Source: an uncultured Erysipelotrichaceae bacterium
GTDB taxonomy: Bacteria; Bacillota_I; Bacilli_A; Erysipelotrichales; Erysipelotrichaceae
NCBI GenBank assembly: GCA_902766005.1
Contig: CACXCB010000193.1
Location: forward strand, 1-36,108
Length of the DNA: 36,108 bases
Direction: 5' to 3'
Shown here: positions 4,986 through 26,962 of the stretch, piece after piece
Numbering within the stretch: position 1 is the first letter of the stretch
How the letters are laid out: the number at the start of each line of letters is the position of its first letter
Made by a program: the position numbers and the translations under genes
The notes under the pieces: generated by a model
Seen by the model: only the letters and a program-made list of their open reading frames with translations
Database searches by the model: none
Told to the model about the DNA's origin: nothing

Positions 4986-6194
4986 ATGAAAACACTTTAT
5001 CTGGAATGCAAAATGGGTGCAGCCGGCGATATGCTGATGGGTGCATTGAGCGAACTGGTTGATCAGACTGCATTTCTTGACAAGATGAATGCCATCGGTC
5101 TGCATGATGTTCTGGTTGAAAAGGAAGAAAGTGTTAAATGCGGCATACATGGCTCGCATATGAAAGTCACGGTTCACGGTGAAGAAGAGGAAAGCGAAGA
5201 CATCCATGAACATCATCACCATGAGCATGAAGATCATGATCACCATCATCACCACCATCATACCCATATGCATGACATCGAAGACATCATCAACGGTCTT
5301 TCTGTTTCAGACAAAGTGAAAGAAGATGCATTAGCTGTGTATAGATCCATTGCAGAGGCAGAAAGCCATGCGCATGGCATGGAGGTATCCGAAATCCATT
5401 TCCATGAAGTCGGAACAATGGATGCTATTGCGGATGTCGTGGGAGTTTGCCTGCTGATGGAAATGATCGGCGCAGAAAGAATCTATGCTTCACCTGTAGC
5501 AGTCGGTAATGGCATGGTCAGATGTGCACATGGAATCCTTCCCGTGCCTGCTCCGGCAACTGCATACCTGTTACAGGGAATTCCTTCCTATGCCGGCAGA
5601 ATGGAAGGGGAATTATGCACACCGACAGGAGCCGCCTTGTTAAAACATTTTGTTCAATCTTTTGAAGGCATGCCGACAATGGTCACCGAGAAAATCGGCT
5701 ATGGCATGGGCAAGAAGGATTTTGAGGCTGCAAACTGTATCAGGGCTTTCCTTGGCGAAGCGGAAGATGACGGGGAAATTGTTGAACTGGTTTGCAATAT
5801 CGATGATCTTTCTGCAGAAAACATCGGTTATGCGGTTGATATTCTGTTTGCAGAAGGGGCATTGGATGTTTATACAACATCCGTCCATATGAAGAAGAAC
5901 CGTCCCGGAATTCTCTTTACCTGCATGTGCAAGACAAGCGATAAGGAAAAGATGATCGCTTTAATCTTCAAACATACGACAACTATCGGCATTCGTGAAT
6001 ATACATGCAGAAGACATGCGCTGAAGAGATCTTTCAGAACAGTGGAGAATGATTTAGGCAAAGTGACGGTAAAAAGGTCTGAAGGGTTCGGAACCGTCAG
6101 AGAAAAGCTTGAATTTGAGGATCTTGCCAGAATTGCCAAAGAAAGTGATATGAGTCTGGAAGATGTCAGGAGTGCATTCGAAAAGCTGAAGTAA
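4986..6194 (+). CDS. larC: LarC, nickel-pincer cofactor nickel insertase
   Basis: A 402-residue LarC. In the lactate racemase system, LarC is a CTP-dependent nickel insertase that places Ni into pyridinium-3,5-bisthiocarboxylate mononucleotide to make the NPN cofactor of LarA-type enzymes. It begins with the hallmark LECKMGAAGDMLMGAL. At about residues 70-95 lies a histidine/acid-rich stretch (roughly positions 5205-5275), a plausible Ni-binding region. FHEVGTMDAIADVVG and a C-terminal domain with IREYTCRRH complete the family length. In Lactobacillus plantarum the gene is expressed through a programmed frameshift as LarC1/LarC2; here one unbroken frame covers both. larA, larB and larE are not in the window. 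It follows the AKR gene closely. Confidence 0.93.
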   Translation: MKTLYLECKMGAAGDMLMGALSELVDQTAFLDKMNAIGLHDVLVEKEESVKCGIHGSHMKVTVHGEEEESEDIHEHHHHEHEDHDHHHHHHHTHMHDIEDIINGLSVSDKVKEDALAVYRSIAEAESHAHGMEVSEIHFHEVGTMDAIADVVGVCLLMEMIGAERIYASPVAVGNGMVRCAHGILPVPAPATAYLLQGIPSYAGRMEGELCTPTGAALLKHFVQSFEGMPTMVTEKIGYGMGKKDFEAANCIRAFLGEAEDDGEIVELVCNIDDLSAENIGYAVDILFAEGALDVYTTSVHMKKNRPGILFTCMCKTSDKEKMIALIFKHTTTIGIREYTCRRHALKRSFRTVENDLGKVTVKRSEGFGTVREKLEFEDLARIAKESDMSLEDVRSAFEKLK

Positions 6195-6202
6195 AATGAT
6201 TG

Positions 6203-6236
6203 AAAACAGGATAAGCTAACAAATCCTGTTTTTTTC
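6203..6236 (+). terminator. Rho-independent terminator after larC
   Basis: AAAACAGGAT (6203-6212) pairs with ATCCTGTTTT (6223-6232) around a 10-base loop and continues into a T-run. It separates the larC operon from the dehydrogenase fusion gene. Confidence 0.85.
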
Positions 6237-6264
6237 GCGGGATTCAATATTTTTCTTTATTTTA

Positions 6265-6278
6265 TGTAAGCGTTTGTA
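6265..6278 (+). promoter_or_regulatory. Catabolite-responsive element (cre) in the fusion-gene promoter
   Basis: TGTAAGCGTTTGTA matches the CcpA cre consensus TGWAANCGNTNWCA at 12 of 14 positions, including the central CG. It lies 51 bases before the start codon and next to probable -10 boxes (TATTAT 6280-6285 and TATAAA 6293-6298). That position would let CcpA repress or modulate initiation. The match is seen; CcpA control is inferred. Confidence 0.65.
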
Positions 6279-6328
6279 GTATTATTTTTATATATAAATC
6301 TTTATTCATAGATAATCAGGAGGAGAAA

Positions 6329-7627
6329 ATGAAAAAGATCACGTATGAAGTAATGAATCCACTTGGGATTCACGCTCGTCCGGCCGCTTTCGTGGCACAG
6401 GCTTGTGTTGCTTTGCCTTCACAGATTGTTATTAAGTGTGGAGATAAAATAGCAAACGGCACAAATGTTCTTCAGATTCTCGCATTAGATGCAAAACAGG
6501 GTTCTGTTCTTGAAATCAGTGCTGACGGTGGCGATGAAGATGCAGCATTGGCTACAATTAAAGATGAACTCGACCACAGACTGAAGACATACAAAGAAGT
6601 AAAAGTTCTGAAAGTCGCATTCTTCGGCGCAAAAGATTATGACCGTATTTTCTTCAGCGAACTTGCAAGAGATGTTGGTGAAGGTGCTTACAACTGTGAT
6701 ATCAAATACTTCAGCACACGTCTTACACCTGAAACTGCAGGACTGGCAAAAGGATTTGATGCAGTATGTATCTTCGTAAATGACGAATGCCCGAGAAGTG
6801 CTGTTGAAACACTGCATGATTGCGGCGTTAAGCTCATTCTGCTCCGTTGCGCAGGCTTCAACAACGTAGACCTGCAGGCTGCAAAAGAATGCGGTATCAA
6901 GGTTGTACGCGTTCCTGCATATTCTCCATACGCAGTAGCTGAACATGCAATGACATTGATCCTGACATGTAACAGACGTATGCACAAGGCTGTCAACAAA
7001 GTGAAGGACAATAACTTCGCATTGAGCGGACTGCTCGGTGTTGACCTCCATAATAAAGTTGCCGGCATCATGGGTACAGGTAAGATCGGCCAGTGCATGG
7101 CTCGTATCTGCAAAGGCTTCGGCATGACAGTTATCGGCTGGGATGCATATCCAAATCAGAGCCTTGTTGATGAAGGCTTGCTGACATATGTTGAAAAGGA
7201 TGAATTATTAGCGAAAGCAGATCTGATCTCTCTGCATGCACCGCTTATCATGGGTCCTAACGGCACATATCACATGATCGATGCGGATGCTATCGCAAAG
7301 ATGAAAGATACAGCAATGCTCGTTAATACAGCTCGTGGCGGATTGATCGACACAGAAGCACTCATCGAAGCTTTGAAAAAGGGCAAGTTCCATGCAGTAG
7401 GTCTTGACGTATATGAAGGCGAAGACGCTAACGTTTACACAGACCATTCTGATGACTTCCTCGTGAATGACATCACTGCAAGACTGCTGATGTTCCCGAA
7501 TGTTGTACTGACATCTCATCAGGCATTCTTCACAAGAGAAGCATTACAGGCTATCGCTTCCGTTACTCTTGAGAATGCACGTAACTTCAATGAAGGTGCA
7601 GATCTCGGCGTAGCTGAATGCAAATAA
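6329..7627 (+). CDS. HPr domain fused to D-lactate dehydrogenase
   Basis: A 432-residue two-domain protein. Residues 1 to about 86 are an HPr (PTS phosphocarrier) domain: GIHARPAA places the phosphorylatable His exactly at position 15 with Arg17 and Pro18. The HPr-kinase site is changed, since position 46 is Asn instead of Ser. Residues about 94-432 are a full-length D-2-hydroxyacid dehydrogenase of the LdhA type: GTGKIG nucleotide-binding loop (249-254), Arg336 in NTARGG, Glu365 in VYEGE and His397 in SHQAF. These have the spacing of the known D-LDH catalytic Arg-Glu-His set. Expected reaction: pyruvate + NADH to D-lactate. An AGGAGGAG site precedes the ATG, a cre lies upstream and a terminator follows, so it is monocistronic. 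There is no frameshift and the domains are joined in one frame. The dehydrogenase call is firm; the regulatory role of the HPr part is inference. Confidence 0.92.
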   Translation: MKKITYEVMNPLGIHARPAAFVAQACVALPSQIVIKCGDKIANGTNVLQILALDAKQGSVLEISADGGDEDAALATIKDELDHRLKTYKEVKVLKVAFFGAKDYDRIFFSELARDVGEGAYNCDIKYFSTRLTPETAGLAKGFDAVCIFVNDECPRSAVETLHDCGVKLILLRCAGFNNVDLQAAKECGIKVVRVPAYSPYAVAEHAMTLILTCNRRMHKAVNKVKDNNFALSGLLGVDLHNKVAGIMGTGKIGQCMARICKGFGMTVIGWDAYPNQSLVDEGLLTYVEKDELLAKADLISLHAPLIMGPNGTYHMIDADAIAKMKDTAMLVNTARGGLIDTEALIEALKKGKFHAVGLDVYEGEDANVYTDHSDDFLVNDITARLLMFPNVVLTSHQAFFTREALQAIASVTLENARNFNEGADLGVAECK

Positions 7628-7638
7628 TTTGAATGAAC

Positions 7639-7665
7639 AGGCGGTTATACCGCCTTTTCTTTTTG
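7639..7665 (+). terminator. Rho-independent terminator after the fusion gene
   Basis: AGGCGGT pairs with ACCGCCT around a TAT loop and is followed by TTTTCTTTTT. Confidence 0.9.
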
Positions 7666-8107: not shown

Positions 8108-8449
8108 ATGCCAGAAGAAATGATGCAGGAAGAACAGATTACCAGAGCAGGAACTTCAACATCCACTGCCAAAAAGAAAACTTCTACAACTACCGCAAAA
8201 AAGAAAACAACGACTTCCTCGTCTAAGAAAACAGGAACAACAAGTGCAAAGAAGAAGACAACGACTACCGCAAAGAAAAAAACATCAACTTCTTCCTCGA
8301 CAACACTGAAATTGTCCGCAAAGGAAAAGAAGCTGGTGCAGAATTACCGCAAATGCAATGCTTTGGAAAAACAGCTGATCGAAGTGATTACGGAAAAAGC
8401 TGCCGGCGGATTGAATCTGTCATTTCTTTCAACTTTACTGAAAGACTGA
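8108..8449 (+). CDS. Lysine/threonine/serine-repeat protein, histone-H1-like
   Basis: A 113-residue protein. Residues about 14-65 are a low-complexity basic tract built from repeated AKKKT units spaced by Thr/Ser runs, like the disordered tails of histone H1-like bacterial proteins. Residues about 66-113 form a helical C-terminal segment: LSAKEKKLVQNYRKCNALEKQL, then a helix ending in AAGGLNLSFLSTLLKD. The net charge is strongly positive, and there is no signal peptide or membrane segment. Nucleic-acid binding is inferred from composition only. An AGAGGAAAAATC site precedes the ATG and a strong terminator follows. I know of no named family for the C-terminal part. Confidence 0.75.
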   Translation: MPEEMMQEEQITRAGTSTSTAKKKTSTTTAKKKTTTSSSKKTGTTSAKKKTTTTAKKKTSTSSSTTLKLSAKEKKLVQNYRKCNALEKQLIEVITEKAAGGLNLSFLSTLLKD

Positions 8450-13460: not shown

Positions 13461-15413
13461 ATGACAGGAATAAAGATAGAAGATATTCAGAAAATCCGCT
13501 ATTGCGGCAATTTGCAGTTTTCAAAAGACGGAAAGCATATTGCGTATACACTTGTGATACCCGATAAAAAGGAAAATAACTATGGTTATGACATATGCGT
13601 TTACAATACGAAGACAAAAGAAAACAAGCGGCTGACATATGACGGCAAAAACTTCTTTCACGTATGGGAAGATGATACAACATTGCTGATTGCAGCGGAA
13701 AAGAGTAAAAAAGACAAAGCGGAACCCTTTGAAGAAAAGACGGTTTATTACCGTCTCAGCTTGGATGGCGGAGAGGCTGTTCCTGCTTTTACGATATCTG
13801 CCAATGTTAACCAGATCATACCTGCGGGTGATGGAAAATATGTATGCCGGATTCTTACAGACTGGAACGGTTTAACCAAAGAACAGAGAAAACAGGAAAG
13901 AGATTATCATGTGCTTGAGGAAGTACCGTTCTGGGGTAACGGCAGAGGGTTTGTATCAGGCAAAAGAAACGGACTGTACCTATTTGATGAGAAGACACAA
14001 GTATTAACAAAGATTACAAACAAGTATACAAATGTAGCTGCCGTGACATATCAGGATGGCAAAATTCTTTATACTGCCAGAAGGTACAAAGATATGATCA
14101 CCATGTATAACGGATTGTTTGTCTATGACATGGTAACGGGAACCACCACAACAATTCTCAGGCAGGGTAAATACGCCATCCGCCAGATTGCGTTTGGCAA
14201 GGAAGGCATCTTCTTCAGTGCTACAGATATGAAGAAATGGGGAAACAATGAACTGGATGACATCTTCTATTATGACGGCAAAACGATCGAAAAGCTTTTG
14301 GATAATGAATCGCTTGCGATTGGTGATGCACCGATGGCAGATACATTCTTTCTCAGCGGTAAATCCTTTATTGCCAAAAACGAAAAACTGTATTTTATCG
14401 CTATGAAAAGATCACAGAATGCGATCTATCAGATTGACACAAAGGGAAAGATGCAGCTGAAAGTTTCCTTCAACGGATCTATCAACGGTTTTGATACAGA
14501 CGGCAGGACATTTGCATATGTGGAAAATGATGCATCTCATGTGAACAGGGTAATGCTGAAAGGAAAACAGGAGGAAATCATTGCCGACTGGAATGCAGAT
14601 CTCTTTGCCGATACAGCGACATCCATACCCGAATCTTTCCAATATCATAATCAGAATGGGGATTTGATGGATGGCTGGGTCATCAAGCCGGCTGACTTTG
14701 ACGAAAAGAAGAAATATCCGGGTATTTTGGAAATCCATGGCGGTCCAAGAGCGGCATATGGCGATATTTACTATCATGAAATGCAGGTTTTATCGGCACA
14801 GGGCTATTTTGTCTTTTTTACCAATCCAAGAGGCAGTGAAGGCTATGGGGAGGCATTTGCGGATATCCGCGGGAAATACGGTACTGTCGATTATGAGGAT
14901 CTGATGTATTTCACCGATCTCATATTGGAAAAATATCCGAATATCGATAAGGATCATCTCGGTGCATGCGGTGGCTCCTATGGCGGATTTATGTGCAACT
15001 GGATTGAAGGGCATACCGACCGCTTTAAAGCCATCTGCTCGCAAAGATCCATTTCCAATTGGGTTGCGGATTTCGGAGCAAGTGAAATCGGTGTCACTTT
15101 TGATGCAAATGAAATGCAGGCAACCCCATGGAGAGATACGAAAAAAATGTGGGATGCTTCCCCGTTAAAATATGCAGATCAAGCAAAGACACCGATTCTC
15201 TTCATTCATTCCCTGCAGGATTACAACTGTCCGATTGATCAGGGCGTGGAAATGTTTACGGCGATGAAATACTTTCATGTACCTTCGAGAATGGTTCTGT
15301 TCGAAGGGGAGAATCACAGTCTCTCGCGCAGCGGCAAACCGCAGCACAGGGTCAGAAGACTGCAGGAAATTGTCAGATGGTTTGACATCTATCTGAAAGG
15401 AAAAAAGAAATGA
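13461..15413 (+). CDS. S9 family prolyl oligopeptidase-like serine peptidase (paralog 2)
   Basis: A 650-residue cytoplasmic S9 peptidase, same architecture as the genes at 436 and 16876. The propeller domain spans residues 1 to about 390 and includes WGNGRGFVSGKRNGLYLF. The alpha/beta-hydrolase domain has an HGGPRAAYGD block and the triad Ser506 (GGSYGGFM), Asp587 (LQDYNC) and His619 (GENHSLSRSGKP). Where its paralogs have SDEDYRC around the Asp it has SLQDYNC, a small active-site change. GGGGAGAAAG precedes the ATG. It overlaps the M20 hydrolase by four bases (ATGA), implying joint expression for peptide breakdown. Confidence 0.94.
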   Translation: MTGIKIEDIQKIRYCGNLQFSKDGKHIAYTLVIPDKKENNYGYDICVYNTKTKENKRLTYDGKNFFHVWEDDTTLLIAAEKSKKDKAEPFEEKTVYYRLSLDGGEAVPAFTISANVNQIIPAGDGKYVCRILTDWNGLTKEQRKQERDYHVLEEVPFWGNGRGFVSGKRNGLYLFDEKTQVLTKITNKYTNVAAVTYQDGKILYTARRYKDMITMYNGLFVYDMVTGTTTTILRQGKYAIRQIAFGKEGIFFSATDMKKWGNNELDDIFYYDGKTIEKLLDNESLAIGDAPMADTFFLSGKSFIAKNEKLYFIAMKRSQNAIYQIDTKGKMQLKVSFNGSINGFDTDGRTFAYVENDASHVNRVMLKGKQEEIIADWNADLFADTATSIPESFQYHNQNGDLMDGWVIKPADFDEKKKYPGILEIHGGPRAAYGDIYYHEMQVLSAQGYFVFFTNPRGSEGYGEAFADIRGKYGTVDYEDLMYFTDLILEKYPNIDKDHLGACGGSYGGFMCNWIEGHTDRFKAICSQRSISNWVADFGASEIGVTFDANEMQATPWRDTKKMWDASPLKYADQAKTPILFIHSLQDYNCPIDQGVEMFTAMKYFHVPSRMVLFEGENHSLSRSGKPQHRVRRLQEIVRWFDIYLKGKKK

Positions 15414-16875: not shown

Positions 16876-18870
16876 ATGCCGAAGAATAAAAAAGATTTAG
16901 AACCGGTTTTACTGGAAGATATTACAAAATACATCATTCCTGCAAGTCTTCAGTACAGTCCGGATGGAAAACTGCTGGCTTTCCATGCCTTAAGAAGCGA
17001 TGTAGAGAAGAACTGTTATAAAAAAGATGTCTATCTGATCAAAGACGGCAAAACGGTCCAGATGACTTACTCCGTTGATGCGGGTTTTCTGTTCTTCGAT
17101 GATAATGCGACAATGATTCTTTCCAGAAAAGCGGAAGACGAAAAGCCTTTTACAACAACATTATTCAAATTGAATGTGAATGGCGGTGAAGCAAAACCAT
17201 GGATTACGCTTCCGTTTCCGTTAAGACAGATGAAGAAAGTGACTGAAGGTGTATATGCAGCTGTCGGCATGATTGATGCAAATGATCCGGATTTCTATCT
17301 GGATACCGATGAAGTCAGAAAAGAGAAGACGGAAAAGAAGGAAAAGGATAAGGATTATACCGTTGTTGATGAGGTTCCGTACTGGTTTAACGGTGCAGGC
17401 TTTACAAACAAAATGAGATCCGCACTCTTTATCGTTGATGTTCGTGATGGCTTCAATGTCAAACGCATCACAGCGCCAAAGTTCAGTGTTTCCTCATTTG
17501 TTTGTGAAGGAACAACTGTCTATTATGCAGGCAACGTGCTTGAAAGAAGCGAGACGATGTATGAAAAGCTGTATGCATATGATATTGAAACAAAGAAAGT
17601 TACGACAATCTTCGGCAAAGAAATGTACTCTTTCGGCAAGCTGTTTGTGATAGATGGACAACTGTTTGCAGAAGCAAGCGACATGAAGAAATACGGATGC
17701 AATGAAACAAAAAACATCTGCAAAATTTCCAAAAACAAGGTTGAAACGGTCTATGTTCCGGAAGTTGCATTATATACAAGTGTTGCCGGTGATACGGTTC
17801 ACGGCGGTGGTGAGGGTTTCTATTGCGATGGCAAATCCTTTATCACTTTAGCAACCGTGGAAGATCATAATGCGCTTTATTCCTTTGACAAGGATATGAA
17901 CCGTACGGTGGTCTGGGAGAATCCGGGCATGGCAGCTTTTATCGCTGTCAGCGATAAAAAGATCGCCATGTGCTATCAGGACTGGAACCATGTTGCCGAG
18001 ATTTATGAGATGGACCGTGAAGGAAACCATTTCAAAAAGATCACATCCCTGAATGACAAAGCGCTTGAAGGTAAGTACATAGCCAAGCCGAAAGCATTGA
18101 AATACACTTCTCATGGGGAAGCATTAAAGGGATGGGTATTATTGCCGGACAACTTTGATAAAGAAAAGAAATATCCTGCCGTATTTGATATTCATGGCGG
18201 ACCGAGAACGGTTTATGGAGAAACATTTTTCCATGAAATGCAGTTATGGGCAGCAAAGGGATATATTGTCTTCTTCACCAATATCCGCGGTTCCGACGGA
18301 AGAGGCGATGCATTTGCGGATATCCGTGACCAGTATGGCTATGTCGATTATGACAACCTGATGGATTTCACGGATGCCGTATTAAAGAAATATCCATGTA
18401 TCGATGAAGCCCGAATCTGTGAGACCGGCGGTTCCTATGGCGGATTCATGACAAACTGGATCATTACCCATACCGACCGTTTCTGCTGTGCAGCCAGCCA
18501 GCGTTCCATCTCCAACTGGATTTCAATGAGCTTTATAAGCGATATCGGTAATTTCTTCGGGCCTGATCAGTGCGGTGGTAACGGACTGTTCGGACAGGAG
18601 AATACCGAAAAGCTCTGGGATCATTCTCCATTAAAATATGCAGAAAACTGCAAGACACCGACATTGTTCATTCACAGTGATGAAGACTACCGTTGTCCGC
18701 TTCCGGAAGGCATGCAGATGATGCAGGCTCTTGCGGTAAGAAACATCGAGACAAGAATGGTCATCTTCCATGGTGAGAATCATGAGCTGTCAAGAAGCGG
18801 CAAGCCGCAACATAGATTGCGCAGACTGCAGGAGATTACAGACTGGTTTGAGGCACACGCCAAAGCATGA
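16876..18870 (+). CDS. S9 family prolyl oligopeptidase-like serine peptidase (paralog 3)
   Basis: A 664-residue cytoplasmic S9 peptidase. The triad is Ser520 (GGSYGGFM), Asp604 (SDEDYRC) and His636 (GENHELSRSGKP). It shares with paralog 1 the sequence around Asp and His and the WFNGAGF block in the propeller. It is therefore closer to the minus-strand copy at 436 than to its neighbour at 13461. A lysine/glutamate-rich insertion at about residues 152-162 (KEKTEKKEKDKD) is peculiar to this copy. There is a good GGGAGGG site before the ATG, its own -10 box and a terminator, so it is probably monocistronic. Confidence 0.94.
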   Translation: MPKNKKDLEPVLLEDITKYIIPASLQYSPDGKLLAFHALRSDVEKNCYKKDVYLIKDGKTVQMTYSVDAGFLFFDDNATMILSRKAEDEKPFTTTLFKLNVNGGEAKPWITLPFPLRQMKKVTEGVYAAVGMIDANDPDFYLDTDEVRKEKTEKKEKDKDYTVVDEVPYWFNGAGFTNKMRSALFIVDVRDGFNVKRITAPKFSVSSFVCEGTTVYYAGNVLERSETMYEKLYAYDIETKKVTTIFGKEMYSFGKLFVIDGQLFAEASDMKKYGCNETKNICKISKNKVETVYVPEVALYTSVAGDTVHGGGEGFYCDGKSFITLATVEDHNALYSFDKDMNRTVVWENPGMAAFIAVSDKKIAMCYQDWNHVAEIYEMDREGNHFKKITSLNDKALEGKYIAKPKALKYTSHGEALKGWVLLPDNFDKEKKYPAVFDIHGGPRTVYGETFFHEMQLWAAKGYIVFFTNIRGSDGRGDAFADIRDQYGYVDYDNLMDFTDAVLKKYPCIDEARICETGGSYGGFMTNWIITHTDRFCCAASQRSISNWISMSFISDIGNFFGPDQCGGNGLFGQENTEKLWDHSPLKYAENCKTPTLFIHSDEDYRCPLPEGMQMMQALAVRNIETRMVIFHGENHELSRSGKPQHRLRRLQEITDWFEAHAKA

Positions 18871-21547: not shown

Positions 21548-21566
21548 ATGAGTTACTCGTTTTTTC
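21537..21566 (+). terminator. Terminator overlapping the lipoprotein stop codon
   Basis: AAAACGGGTAA (which includes the stop codon) pairs with TTACTCGTTTT around an ATGAG loop, with one G-T pair, and ends in a T-run. Confidence 0.8.
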
Positions 21567-21592
21567 TTTCACAAATCTTAATTATTCTTAAG

Positions 21593-21621
21593 TTGAACAT
21601 GGATTATCAAGGTGATAACAT
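21593..21621 (+). promoter_or_regulatory. Promoter of the MacB-type export operon
   Basis: TTGAAC (21593-21598), a 17-base spacer ending in TGA, and TAACAT (21616-21621) give an extended -10 arrangement 22 bases before the first gene. Confidence 0.6.
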
Positions 21622-21643
21622 TATCATACATGGGGGAATACGA

Positions 21644-22816
21644 ATGAAAAAAACAAATAAAATTACAGTTTCGATTGTTGCAATCGTGCTTGTTGCGGCT
21701 ATATTGATCGGATATTTTCTTTTGCATGATAATGGCGGCGCAGCTGCCGGGGAAGGTGCTTATGTGGAAAAGGTTTCTGTCATTACCGGAGGAGGCATGG
21801 TTTATGCTGACAGGTATTCCGGTGTTGTCGAATCACAGGAAACCCTGGAAATCAAAAAAGATTCCAACAGGCCGATTGAAGAATTATACGTCGAAGTAGG
21901 TGAATCTGTTATCATCGGATCACCTTTATTCAAATACGATGTCACAGAAGCACAAAATAACATTGCTTCTACAAATCTGGAAATTGAAGGCACCAATAAT
22001 GAAATTGCCGCATTGAATGCCGAAATCGGTGAACTTGCAAGCGACAGAAACAAAGCCAGTGCAGATGAGAAACTCGATTACACCACACAGATTCAGTCAA
22101 AGCAGATGGCGATCAGACAAAGTGAAATCGAGCTTCAGCAAAAGAAAAAGGATTTGGAAAAGTATCAGAAGGAAATTGATAATGCGGTAGTCACATCCAC
22201 AATCAGCGGTATTGTCAAATCCATCAGTGAAAACGGATATGACAATTACGGAAATGAGCTTCCGTATATTGCCATTACACAAACCGGAGAATACAGAGTC
22301 AAAGGCAAAGTCGATGAAAATTCCGTCGGTGTCATTGTTCCGGGAATGAGCGTGATTATCCGCTCAAGAACTGATGAAACCCAGACTTGGACAGGTACTG
22401 TTTCCCATATCGATACCGAACCTGTTACCGACAACAACAATTACTATTCCGATAGCGGTGAAAGATCTTCCAGTTATCCGTTTTATATCACTTTAGATAC
22501 TGCTGATGGTTTAATGCTCGGACAGCATGTATTGATTGAACCAGATTACGGACAGGGAACTGTCAAAGAAGGCATCTGGCTTGACATGAGCTACATTGTC
22601 ACAGAAGATGACGGGAATACATACGTATGGGCAGCTAATTCAAGAAATAAGCTGGAAAAGAGAAAAGTAGAACTTGGGGAAATGGATGATGAAACATATA
22701 CATGTCAGATTCTTTCCGGACTGAGTGAGACTGATATGATTGCATGGCCTGATGAATCTTGTAAAGAAGGCATGCCGGTAATAACATCCGACAGTTTTGC
22801 GGAGGATGCGGAATGA
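21644..22816 (+). CDS. Efflux periplasmic-adaptor-type (MFP/HlyD-like) protein, first adaptor
   Basis: A 390-residue membrane fusion protein. An N-terminal transmembrane anchor (about residues 5-26) is followed by a lipoyl half, a coiled-coil hairpin rich in Glu/Lys/Gln (about 110-175), the second lipoyl half (VVTSTISGIVKSISENG), and beta-barrel and membrane-proximal domains (VDENSVGVIVPGMSVIIRSR). In Gram-positives such proteins pair with MacB-like ABC transporters, for example the YknWXYZ type, to export peptides or other toxic molecules. The ATG at 21644 follows GGGGGAA; a longer frame from 21548 would begin inside the terminator. It overlaps the ATPase gene (ATGA). Confidence 0.9.
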   Translation: MKKTNKITVSIVAIVLVAAILIGYFLLHDNGGAAAGEGAYVEKVSVITGGGMVYADRYSGVVESQETLEIKKDSNRPIEELYVEVGESVIIGSPLFKYDVTEAQNNIASTNLEIEGTNNEIAALNAEIGELASDRNKASADEKLDYTTQIQSKQMAIRQSEIELQQKKKDLEKYQKEIDNAVVTSTISGIVKSISENGYDNYGNELPYIAITQTGEYRVKGKVDENSVGVIVPGMSVIIRSRTDETQTWTGTVSHIDTEPVTDNNNYYSDSGERSSSYPFYITLDTADGLMLGQHVLIEPDYGQGTVKEGIWLDMSYIVTEDDGNTYVWAANSRNKLEKRKVELGEMDDETYTCQILSGLSETDMIAWPDESCKEGMPVITSDSFAEDAE

Positions 22817-23493
22817 TACTTGAATTGAAGAATATCGATAAAACATACGGCATGGATCAGGTGACAGTCAATGCATTAAAAAATGTATCTTTTTCTGTTG
22901 AAGAAGGAGAATATATTGCTATTATGGGACCGTCCGGATCAGGCAAAACAACCTTAATGAATATCATCGGATGTCTCGATAAACAATATAAAGGTACATA
23001 TATTCTGGATGGAACGGATGTTACGACATTAGATGAAAACGGATTATCAGAAGTCCGACTGCATAAAATCGGTTTTGTATTTCAGACCTTTCAGCTGCTG
23101 GCAGGAGAAACAGCTTTGGAAAATGTTGCATTACCTTTGATTTATGCCAATGTGAAAAAGAAGGAACGCCAGGAAAGAGCTGCCGAAGCATTAAAAAAAG
23201 TAGGCCTGGAAGAAAGAACTTCCTTTTTGCCTGCACAGTTATCAGGCGGCCAGAAACAGCGTGTCGCTATTGCAAGGGCAATGATCAATCAGCCGAGAAT
23301 CCTTCTTGCCGATGAACCTACCGGTGCACTGGATCAGGCTTCCGGAAGACAGGTAATGGAATTATTTAAGCAGTTAAATGATGAAGGTGTAACAATCATT
23401 ATGATTACACATGATGCAAAGGTTGCATCCAATGCAAAAAGAGTACTCCACATCATTGATGGAGAAATATCAGAAGGAGCGTTCAAAGCATGA
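22813..23493 (+). CDS. ABC transporter ATP-binding protein, MacB/LolD type
   Basis: A 226-residue ATPase with Walker A GPSGSGKTT, Q-loop FVFQTFQLL, signature LSGGQKQR, Walker B ILLADEPTGALD and the H-loop ITHD. The GALD after Walker B and the size are typical of the MacB/LolD/FtsE cluster of mechanotransmission ABC systems. It overlaps both neighbours by four bases and would energise the permease at 25718. Confidence 0.95.
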   Translation: MILELKNIDKTYGMDQVTVNALKNVSFSVEEGEYIAIMGPSGSGKTTLMNIIGCLDKQYKGTYILDGTDVTTLDENGLSEVRLHKIGFVFQTFQLLAGETALENVALPLIYANVKKKERQERAAEALKKVGLEERTSFLPAQLSGGQKQRVAIARAMINQPRILLADEPTGALDQASGRQVMELFKQLNDEGVTIIMITHDAKVASNAKRVLHIIDGEISEGAFKA

Positions 23494-25718
23494 AAACAGG
23501 AAAGAAAATATTGATTTCGGTGATTTGTGCTGCTCTTGTGATTGCAGGAATCATCGGATACAAAATTTATAACGATTCTAAAATTGTCGTAAGTGTAACA
23601 CCTGTGTCATACATGATGGGCGGATACTATGAAGATCCTTTAACCACATCAGGCATGGTTTACGACATGGAAAACCAGATTGTCGATGTAGACTATCAGA
23701 AGATTGTCAATCAGGTTTTTGTCGAAGAAGGTCAGGAAGTCAAGGAAGGAGATCCGTTAGTTGAATATGATATCACTTCTTTAGAACTTTCCCTTGAATT
23801 AAAAAAGCTCTCTATTGAATCATTGCAAAATGATATAGAAAAAGCAAAAAGAGACTTAAGGAAACTGAATAATACAACTCCTATGCCGGAGTATACGCCA
23901 GAACCTGAGGTAATTCCCGAACCGACACCTGTTCCGGAGAAAAAACCGAAGAAGATCAAAGATGCATGGGATTTTCTCAATGAATTAAAACAGGCAGAGA
24001 ATTATACGGAAGAAACCGCAGCTCATGTATCATTGAATCAGATGGCATCATGGAAACAGGAAGATGCAACAAACAAAACACCTGCCTCTCCAGAACCGCA
24101 GAATGAAGAAGAACCTGTCGAATCACCGACACCTGATCCGCAGAACACGCCTGAACCGCAAAATACACCCGAACCTTCTGAATCTCCGCAACCCGTCACC
24201 AAATATCATCTCTCTTTGACCAATTGTGCTACAACAGTCACATATACGGATGATGAAGGCGATCATGAGATGCAGGTTGCAGAGTATGATTTTGAACCTG
24301 GAGAAGAAATTGTCGTCAGATATCAGATCGATGATGAAAAAAGAGATAAATTTGGTTACTGGAAGGTTGCCGGTTTAGATTATAAGAATTCTGCATATGG
24401 TGAAATTACTTTCACCATGCCGGATCATGATGTTTATATCACTGCAATGTATGACAGATATTACAATGTCACTGTTGAAAACGGCAAAGCCGAACCTTCC
24501 AGTGCTACTGAAGGGACGACAATCACGGTTACTTACAATGGTGAGGACGAGTTTAAAGAATGGAAAGCTTCTGACGATAGTGTTAAATTTGCTTATTCTA
24601 AGAATCAGCAGACAACATTTGTGATGCCGGGCAAGGATGTTACGATAAAGGCAAAAACCGATAAAGATGACAAAGATCCCAATCCTCCTGCGGGTACAGC
24701 AGAAAACCCTTATAAATTCTTAGTCAGTGAAAACGGGTATATTACCGGTGCATTCCTCAATGAATTAAGAGAAAAGGGTGAAGATGTCTATGCTGCAATT
24801 TATACTTCATCCGATAATACATGGGAGAAAGCAGAAGAAAAACCATTGACTACATTCTGCAGTTCATCTTTGGTACAGGTGGATGATGCATCCATGTGGA
24901 GCATACCGGATCGCATGGTCAGGTTTGATGAAGAGGAGATAGTCGTTGATGATAGCGGATATGAATCTATTGATATTCCGGAAGGCGGATATACCGCAGA
25001 ACAATTAAAGAGATTGATAGCTTCTACCGAAAGACAGATTGTCAGCCTGGATCTGAGCAAGAGAAAAGCAGAACTGGAATTAAAGGAACTGGAACAGCAG
25101 TTATCAGACGGCATTGTTCATGCCAAGAGAAACGGTGTTGTAAAAACCGTGCATTCTCCGGATGATATTCCAAATGACGGTACGCCGTTCCTTGAGGTTG
25201 TCAGCGGCAAAGGCATATACATTCAAGGTAGCATTTCAGAATTATTACTGGATCAGGTACAGACCGGACAGCCGGTTTATGCAATGTCCTGGGAAGACGG
25301 TAATTCCTATGAAGGGGAAATTGTTGCGATCGATGACTGGCCTTCCAGCAATGATATGTACTTCGGAAACGGAAATCCGAATGTATCCTATTATTCTTTC
25401 CGTGCTTATGTAGAAGATGCCGGTACATTAAAGAGCGGCAATTATTTGCAGCTGAATTTTGGCAGCAATCCGGGTACAAGCAACCAGATTGTAATCTCCA
25501 ATGCATATATCCGTGATGAAAAAGGAAAGAAATATGTCATGAAAGATGACAATGGAAAACTGGTCAAACAATATGTGAAAACCGGTAAAACATACTGGGG
25601 CAGCCAGACAGAAATACTGGAAGGCATTACTGCAGAAGATGCTATTGCATTCCCGTATGGTGACGGTGCTAAAGAAGGTGCCAGAACCAAACAAGAGGAT
25701 GGGGAGGTATACTACTGA
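23490..25718 (+). CDS. Second adaptor protein, with a ~370-residue insertion in its coiled-coil hairpin
   Basis: A 742-residue membrane-anchored adaptor. It has a transmembrane segment (about 6-24), a first lipoyl half (about 66-95) and a descending helix (about 96-128). A long insertion follows: a proline-rich tract (130-152), a second Pro/Glu/Thr tract with repeated PEPQNTPEP-like units (196-236), two modules resembling divergent InlB B-repeats (about 238-322 and 325-390, each ending in a FTMPD/FVMPG-type motif plus V-x-I), and an unrecognised domain (about 400-500). The ascending helix (501-540), second lipoyl half (IVHAKRNGVVKTVHSP) and barrel region then resume. Ordinary MFPs are about half this length. 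The insertion sits at the hairpin tip, so it would project into the cell wall or outside. It is coupled by ATGA/TGATG overlaps to the ATPase and permease. Confidence 0.88.
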   Translation: MKTGKKILISVICAALVIAGIIGYKIYNDSKIVVSVTPVSYMMGGYYEDPLTTSGMVYDMENQIVDVDYQKIVNQVFVEEGQEVKEGDPLVEYDITSLELSLELKKLSIESLQNDIEKAKRDLRKLNNTTPMPEYTPEPEVIPEPTPVPEKKPKKIKDAWDFLNELKQAENYTEETAAHVSLNQMASWKQEDATNKTPASPEPQNEEEPVESPTPDPQNTPEPQNTPEPSESPQPVTKYHLSLTNCATTVTYTDDEGDHEMQVAEYDFEPGEEIVVRYQIDDEKRDKFGYWKVAGLDYKNSAYGEITFTMPDHDVYITAMYDRYYNVTVENGKAEPSSATEGTTITVTYNGEDEFKEWKASDDSVKFAYSKNQQTTFVMPGKDVTIKAKTDKDDKDPNPPAGTAENPYKFLVSENGYITGAFLNELREKGEDVYAAIYTSSDNTWEKAEEKPLTTFCSSSLVQVDDASMWSIPDRMVRFDEEEIVVDDSGYESIDIPEGGYTAEQLKRLIASTERQIVSLDLSKRKAELELKELEQQLSDGIVHAKRNGVVKTVHSPDDIPNDGTPFLEVVSGKGIYIQGSISELLLDQVQTGQPVYAMSWEDGNSYEGEIVAIDDWPSSNDMYFGNGNPNVSYYSFRAYVEDAGTLKSGNYLQLNFGSNPGTSNQIVISNAYIRDEKGKKYVMKDDNGKLVKQYVKTGKTYWGSQTEILEGITAEDAIAFPYGDGAKEGARTKQEDGEVYY

Positions 25719-26962
25719 TGATAGAAAATATCAGATTATCATTTAGAGGTATTCTTTCACATAAAATGCGTTCTTTCCTGACAATGCTCGGTATTATTAT
25801 CGGTATTGCAGCAATTATTGCCATTGTTTCTACAATCAAAGGCACAAATGAGCAGATCCAGAAGAATCTGATCGGATCCGGTGAGAACAATGTCATTGTC
25901 CAAATGGTGCAGGGAGACTGGGAATATGATTATTCACAAGGCATTCCTTCCGGTGTATCTGTTCTCAATGATTCGGATAAAGAAAACCTTATGACTATTG
26001 ATAATGTCGAAGGTGTATCTTTGTTTCACAGGCGTCAGGAATATGAAGGCGTCTATCATGTAAATGACGGCATAAACGGCGGATATGTTTACGGAATTGA
26101 TACAGGATATTTTTCCACGGTCGGTTTACAGGTGATGCATGGAAGAGGCATTAGTGAAACAGATCGTGAAAACAGAAGAAAAGTATGCTTGCTGGATTCA
26201 ATCAGTTCTGAAACTTTGTTTCCGGGTACGGATCCGCTTGGCAAAACAATTGAAATCAGACAGGAACCATTTACTGTTATCGGCATTGTTACGGAAAAAG
26301 AAAGCTTTGAACCGGCAATCAATACCATCGAGGATTACTATATGTATCGTCAGGATGCTTCGGGAAGAATCTATATTCCGGATACTTCCTGGCCGATTAT
26401 CTATCAATATGACGAACCGCAGAATGTTGTGCTTCGTGCAAACAATACAGCTGCTATGACGCAGATCGGCAGAGATGCTGCAAACCTGCTGAATGCAAAC
26501 ATCACTTCTGCAGATTTCCAGTATAAAGCACAGGATTTACTGGAACAGGCAAAAGAAATCCAGCAGTTGTCTCAATCTACCAATACCATGTTAATCTGGA
26601 TTGCCGGAATATCATTGCTGGTAGGAGGTATCGGTGTCATGAATATCATGCTTGTCAGCGTTACCGAAAGAACCAGCGAAATCGGTTTGAAGAAAGCCAT
26701 CGGTGCACCGAAAAGGGCAATACTCGGACAGTTTCTGACCGAAGCGGTTGTATTAACTTCAACAGGAGGGCTTCTCGGTGTTATCTCAGGTATCATATTA
26801 GCGGAGCTGATATCCAGGTTAAACGGCACGCCGGTAGCGATTTCGATTGAAGCAGCTATATTTGCGGTGGTATTCTCGATGATCATCGGTATTATATTCG
26901 GAATCCTTCCGTCTTATAAAGCTGCCAATCTTGATCCGATTGAAGCATTAAGACATGAGTAA
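25718..26962 (+). CDS. MacB-like ABC transporter permease
   Basis: A 414-residue permease of the MacB/FtsX superfamily. It has an N-terminal transmembrane helix (SHKMRSFLTMLGIIIGIAAI), a large extracellular MacB periplasmic core domain (about residues 45-270), and three C-terminal helices beginning with LLVGGIGVMNIMLVSVTERT. The loop TSEIGLKKAIGA and the closing LPSYKAANLDPIEALRHE are hallmark MacB sequences. It overlaps the second adaptor by one base and ends the operon. Confidence 0.95.
   Translation: MIENIRLSFRGILSHKMRSFLTMLGIIIGIAAIIAIVSTIKGTNEQIQKNLIGSGENNVIVQMVQGDWEYDYSQGIPSGVSVLNDSDKENLMTIDNVEGVSLFHRRQEYEGVYHVNDGINGGYVYGIDTGYFSTVGLQVMHGRGISETDRENRRKVCLLDSISSETLFPGTDPLGKTIEIRQEPFTVIGIVTEKESFEPAINTIEDYYMYRQDASGRIYIPDTSWPIIYQYDEPQNVVLRANNTAAMTQIGRDAANLLNANITSADFQYKAQDLLEQAKEIQQLSQSTNTMLIWIAGISLLVGGIGVMNIMLVSVTERTSEIGLKKAIGAPKRAILGQFLTEAVVLTSTGGLLGVISGIILAELISRLNGTPVAISIEAAIFAVVFSMIIGIIFGILPSYKAANLDPIEALRHE

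Follow-up and report, generated by a model that had tools for sequence, protein, structure and literature searches.

A conserved HPr–D-lactate dehydrogenase fusion in Erysipelotrichales and its putative role as a built-in sensor of sugar import

The HPr–D-lactate dehydrogenase gene

The window analyzed here, a 36,108-nucleotide stretch of DNA from an uncultured Erysipelotrichaceae bacterium, holds a reading frame at positions 6329-7627 in which HPr, the phosphocarrier of the phosphoenolpyruvate (PEP):sugar phosphotransferase system (PTS), is joined to a complete D-lactate dehydrogenase (D-LDH). A preliminary description of this DNA, made from the letters alone, had read the frame as one unbroken fusion, and the 432-residue product does have relatives that are full length over residues 1-432. 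The fusion is a genuine, widely conserved gene of gut and rumen bacteria, in which the Enzyme I phosphorylation site of HPr (His15) is kept and the HPr-kinase site (Ser46) is lost. The features of the locus are as follows:

6222..6244, + strand: terminator-like hairpin after the gene for LarC and upstream of the fusion gene (from the sequence)
6318..6323, + strand: Shine-Dalgarno sequence AGGAGG, 5 nt upstream of the ATG of the HPr part (from the sequence)
6329..7627, + strand: HPr–D-LDH fusion gene, 432 aa (single stop-free frame; full-length relatives)
6329..6592, + strand: HPr domain, residues 1-88 (PF00381; secondary structure of the model)
6371..6373, + strand: His15 codon, Enzyme I phosphorylation site (His in all 72 distinct fusions)
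6464..6466, + strand: Asn46 codon, replacing the HPr-kinase Ser46 (fusions versus free HPrs)
6593..6607, + strand: short linker of about five residues, 89-93, between the HPr and LDH parts
6608..7624, + strand: LdhA-type D-LDH part, residues 94-432 (PF00389, PF02826; solved D-LDHs)
7334..7336, + strand: catalytic Arg336 (invariant among the fusions)
7421..7423, + strand: catalytic Glu365 (72/74 alignment rows)
7517..7519, + strand: catalytic His397 (73/74 alignment rows, the remaining row being a gap)
7639..7655, + strand: terminator-like hairpin after the fusion gene, 7 pairs followed by a T run (from the sequence)

The terminator-like hairpins on both sides give the fusion gene the look of a single-gene unit. 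Most of the fusion genes of relatives are likewise preceded by AGGAG-type sites similar to that of the window. An internal start that would produce the LDH alone was rejected, since the window gene, like most close relatives, lacks an in-frame start codon between codons 81 and 125; three close relatives have an ATG at codon 85. Upstream of the fusion gene a string resembling a catabolite-responsive element (cre), TGTAAGCGTTTGTA, occurs at 6276-6292 and nearby; a pattern search for cre did not show this element to be conserved among relatives, and control of the gene by CcpA was therefore rejected.

Domain identity and predicted structure

The Pfam search identified a PTS-HPr domain (PF00381) at residues 4-79 (E-value 6.6e-20; 71.4 bits against a cut-off of 23), and the score for the HPr model TIGR01003 (61.9, cut-off 47.9) places this part in the HPr family. 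The D-isomer 2-hydroxyacid dehydrogenase models PF00389 (E-value 2e-28) and PF02826 (E-value 6.7e-50) matched at residues 122-424, within a complete dehydrogenase domain that spans about residues 94 to 425. No PTS domain other than HPr was detected by Pfam in the fusion protein, which thus has neither the Enzyme I nor the IIA domain of a multiphosphoryl transfer protein. The closest solved relative of the LDH part is the D-LDH of Fusobacterium (5z21, E-value 3.5e-95), the other best solved relatives being those of Pseudomonas and Escherichia coli; their alignment to the fusion begins at about residue 90, and identity amounts to 44-48%. The D-2-hydroxyacid dehydrogenase fold and the catalytic Arg336, Glu365, and His397 named in the preliminary description are thereby confirmed from both Pfam and the solved enzymes, and D-lactate, judging from the family, is the likely product.

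None of the D-LDH models in NCBIfam reached its cut-off. This does not exclude the LdhA type, because the matching models (VanH, PRK12480, PRK08605) describe other D-LDH subfamilies. With the HPr model passing its cut-off and no NCBIfam D-LDH model doing so, automatic naming may label the protein simply as HPr and hide the enzyme.

An AlphaFold2 model built on a 75-row alignment had a mean predicted local distance difference test score (pLDDT) of 89.7 and a predicted template modelling score (pTM) of 0.83. In the model the first 88 residues follow the HPr order of elements (strand-helix-strand-strand-helix-strand-helix), and, as in HPr, His15 immediately precedes helix 1 (residues 16-28), while residue 46 immediately precedes the short helix 2 (residues 47-52). 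As the pTM slightly exceeds the LDH share of the chain (about 0.79), the model hints at some confidence in the placement of HPr relative to the LDH.

Taxonomic distribution and origin

Among 316 genomes of the order, 77 encoded the full-length fusion and four further genomes contained fragments of it. In 15 other genomes the unfused form, a relative with about 50% identity, occurs alone, and one genome has both forms. The carriers belong to two families, with Eggerthia catenaformis placed in one of them. When named genomes were scanned, the fusion turned up in isolates of Kandleria vitulina, E. catenaformis, Faecalibacillus faecis, and Eubacterium pyruvativorans as well as in many gut and rumen metagenome-assembled genomes (MAGs), the names of which are less reliable. 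Across 392 genomes sampled from the phylum, every full-length fusion belonged to this order. The match to a Planctomycetia sequence (L097) starts at residue 9 but lacks HPr sequence and was rejected as a fusion.

With its 366 contigs and 6.5% contamination, the fragmented host assembly would be compatible with two genes having been joined by an assembly or sequencing error. Such an artefact, which the preliminary description had listed together with absence from relatives as a possible refutation, has virtually no probability left: the fusion recurs at full length in dozens of independently assembled genomes, including cultured isolates and a single-contig 3.2 Mb chromosome (G291) with one full-length copy.

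For the origin of the fusion a tree of the LDH parts was constructed by a quick method from 47 thinned fused rows and 33 unfused rows. All 47 fused rows fell on one side of a single branch with a long stem (0.62) and a support of 100 in the Shimodaira-Hasegawa-like approximate likelihood ratio test (SH-aLRT). This grouping points to a single fusion event that was followed by spread, with some transfer of the fusion gene being likely. No donor of the HPr domain was visible in a comparison that included three of ten paralogs, where the free HPrs were all about 20-40% identical to the fused domain.

Conserved and lost residues

Residues were counted in 72 distinct fusions and 30 free HPrs of the order. 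While most of the HPr domain varies, Gly13, His15, Ala16, and Arg17 are invariant (72/72) and Pro18 is kept in 70 of the 72 fusions, so that the phosphorylation loop assigned in the preliminary description (His15, Arg17, Pro18) holds for the family. The same is true of the reported replacement of Ser46 by Asn46, which is no quirk of the window sequence: position 46 is Asn in 63 fusions, Asp in eight, and Ser in one, whereas all 30 free HPrs have Ser46. Canonical HPr binds Enzyme I through a hydrophobic face around residues 47, 48, and 51, and these positions stay hydrophobic in the fused domain (V47 68/72, L48 71/72, L51 68/72). With the His15 loop and this face retained and Ser46 replaced, the alignments indicate that the fused HPr has kept its Enzyme I site and shed its HPr-kinase site; the window protein, with Asn46, lacks the phosphorylatable serine by which a Gram-positive regulatory HPr enters the HPr-kinase/CcpA circuit.

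The ratio of nonsynonymous to synonymous substitution rates (dN/dS) was calculated by the method of Nei and Gojobori (NG86) as the median of 128 pairwise comparisons between species of the genus, in which synonymous sites are partly saturated. The HPr part gave a value of about 0.09 and the LDH part one of about 0.06, which indicates that both domains are under purifying selection. Within the LDH part the fused clade differs from the unfused enzymes at G364, D366, and V369, which flank the catalytic Glu365, and is further set apart by an inserted Gly117 and by W271 in the NAD domain. G364, D366, V369, and W271 are candidate contacts.

PTS partners in the host and relatives

The host genome encodes a full-length Enzyme I, as the proposed phosphorylation requires, together with a canonical Ser46 HPr, an HPr(Ser) kinase, and an L-LDH-like protein scoring just below the curated cut-off. 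Separate HPr genes were also seen in relatives carrying the fusion. Enzyme I matches were obtained for 33 of 39 further fusion genomes, among them all four of the isolates tested. Eubacterium pyruvativorans (L079, 7847-9160), known as a non-sugar-fermenting user of pyruvate and amino acids, nonetheless carries both the fusion and Enzyme I, which makes it a useful case for what a sensor of this kind would read.

Proposed function and alternative explanations

The reading that we favor, at about even odds (probability of roughly 0.5), is that the HPr part is a covalent His15 sensor which is phosphorylated by Enzyme I, shielded from HPr kinase, and adjusts an allosteric D-LDH; an NADH-dependent fermentative enzyme would then bear its own PTS sensor. 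At a high PEP/pyruvate ratio and low sugar influx Enzyme I would phosphorylate the fused HPr at His15, and fast PTS sugar uptake would drain the phosphate again, either via Enzyme I back to pyruvate or via EIIA. The phosphorylation state would alter the seating of HPr on the tetrameric, allosteric LDH and in this way set its affinity for pyruvate. By analogy, the unphosphorylated form would most likely be the more active one, so that lactate is produced while sugar flows in. The loss of Ser46 would keep the fused HPr outside the HPr-kinase/CcpA circuit, leaving only the Enzyme I signal to be read. More tentatively, phosphorylation of His15 by Enzyme I may act as an actual switch of pyruvate reduction, lactate output tracking sugar uptake within one polypeptide that is blind to HPr kinase.

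That the fusion might sense the PEP/pyruvate ratio and the flow of sugar is proposed because the LDH family is allosteric and because HPr activates a pyruvate kinase in Vibrio. Unfused LdhA-family enzymes are tetramers with cooperative pyruvate binding; those of Fusobacterium and Pseudomonas respond to fructose 1,6-bisphosphate and Mg2+, activation being seen in the Fusobacterium enzyme, which prefers 2-ketobutyrate over pyruvate (PMC4230899). A precedent comes from Vibrio vulnificus, where HPr in its unphosphorylated form binds pyruvate kinase A and activates it through a lower Km for PEP (PMC5987630). From the fusions themselves we count as support the invariant His15 and Arg17, the loss of Ser46, purifying selection, the co-occurrence with Enzyme I, and the clade-specific residues flanking Glu365. 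Two observations weigh against the sensor. The HPr part has changed more rapidly in evolution than the LDH part, as would be expected of a loosely held domain, and six of the 39 fusion genomes had no match to Enzyme I; all six are MAGs, which makes incompleteness a likely cause.

The faster divergence of the HPr part would also fit a domain that was acquired by a chance fusion and persists because it helps folding or stabilizes the oligomer, without signaling, as would the low identity of the fused HPr to free HPrs (only about 30%) and the existence of unfused LDHs of the same family that do without HPr. Yet a passive domain can hardly account for His15 and Arg17 in 72 of 72 sequences, for the loss of Ser46 but not of His15, or for purifying selection, and we regard this explanation as rather unlikely. 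The retained His15 and Enzyme I-facing residues and the co-occurrence of Enzyme I could also serve docking, with the HPr part binding Enzyme I or EIIA and keeping the LDH at the place where pyruvate is set free from PEP by Enzyme I. Enzyme I yields one pyruvate per PTS sugar, which would be reduced on the spot, and His15 phosphorylation would govern docking instead of catalysis. Pyruvate, however, is small and diffuses fast, and binding alone would not obviously require His15 in every sequence; both this arrangement and such a role of His15 appear unlikely. The intact active-site loop would further allow the fused domain to work as a second HPr that carries phosphate from Enzyme I to EIIA domains, the LDH being a passenger or a flux-matched partner. 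But the host has its canonical HPr, fusion-bearing relatives have separate HPr genes too, and no link of the fusion gene to a PTS operon was seen, so that a working phosphocarrier seems improbable.

Docking to CcpA, which the preliminary description had also considered, is strongly disfavored. The established cofactor of CcpA is HPr phosphorylated on Ser46, and although the host does have an HPr kinase, the serine is missing from 71 of 72 fusions. Asp46 could mimic phosphoserine, but only in the minority of eight fusions that have it.

The sensor reading compared with known systems

The LdhA-type D-LDHs of Fusobacterium nucleatum (5z21), Pseudomonas aeruginosa (5z20), and E. coli (5z1z) have the fold and the catalytic Arg/Glu/His in common with the fusion but lack HPr, and the fused clade alone has its own Glu365-flanking residues, the Gly117 insertion, and W271. 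With canonical HPr (PtsH) the fused domain shares the His15-Ala-Arg loop, the order of fold elements, and the Enzyme I-facing hydrophobic residues; it differs by the missing Ser46, by its low identity, and by being covalently joined to an enzyme. Crh of Bacillus, an HPr-like protein that keeps Ser46 and lacks His15, likewise retains one of the two HPr phosphorylation sites and is thus the mirror image of the fusion. In multiphosphoryl transfer proteins (FruB/FPr, DhaM) HPr is also a module within a longer protein, but there the partners are Enzyme I or IIA, as in the published HPr fusions consulted, which link HPr to other PTS domains (PMC2405797), whereas in the present protein HPr is joined to an enzyme of fermentation. 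The pyruvate kinase A of V. vulnificus resembles what we propose for the fusion in that an enzyme at the PEP/pyruvate node responds to the phosphorylation state of HPr, although HPr and enzyme are separate there (PMC5987630) and form one chain here.

The modules and the regulation by HPr in trans are thus known, and the covalent pairing with a metabolic enzyme is, as far as we found, new. In agreement with the preliminary description, which was aware of no HPr–LDH fusion, our search of one open literature library found no description of HPr fused to LDH or to any other metabolic enzyme, its coverage being partial and such absence no proof. If the sensor reading is true, this would be the first case, as far as found, of HPr as an in-cis regulatory domain of a metabolic enzyme, and a long-standing fusion of single origin would show a PTS signal wired directly into the final part of glycolysis. 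The fusion probably ties lactate production directly to sugar import and, being a single protein, allows a simple test of whether the PTS controls lactate output. Kandleria and related lactate-forming bacteria of the gut and rumen are among its carriers. In the related Sharpea, the D-LDH gene, which may or may not be this fusion, was 12-fold up in low-methane sheep, with PTS genes rising alongside it (PMC5069950).

Other genes in the window

Directly upstream of the fusion gene lies a gene for the nickel-pincer cofactor protein LarC (4986-6194). The lactate racemase LarA (PF09861) was not found in the host genome, which is fragmented, so that LarC is either an orphan or its partner falls into an assembly gap. 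No conserved neighbor genes of the fusion were found among relatives. A link to lactate racemization through the adjoining LarC was rejected, as LarA was not found and LarC is no conserved neighbor.

Downstream, positions 8108-8449 encode a 113-aa Lys/Thr/Ser-rich protein with KKKT-type repeats in tandem units of 24-27 bp, which resembles histone-H1-like tails and has no Pfam match. Three genes of the S9 prolyl-oligopeptidase family (436-2469, 13461-15413, 16876-18870) and an M20 peptidase gene lie within 19 kb and suggest peptide use. The region 21548-26962 holds HlyD-like and MacB/FtsX-like export genes, among them one for a 742-aa protein (23490-25718) in which a stretch resembling InlB B-repeats is combined with parts of HlyD type.
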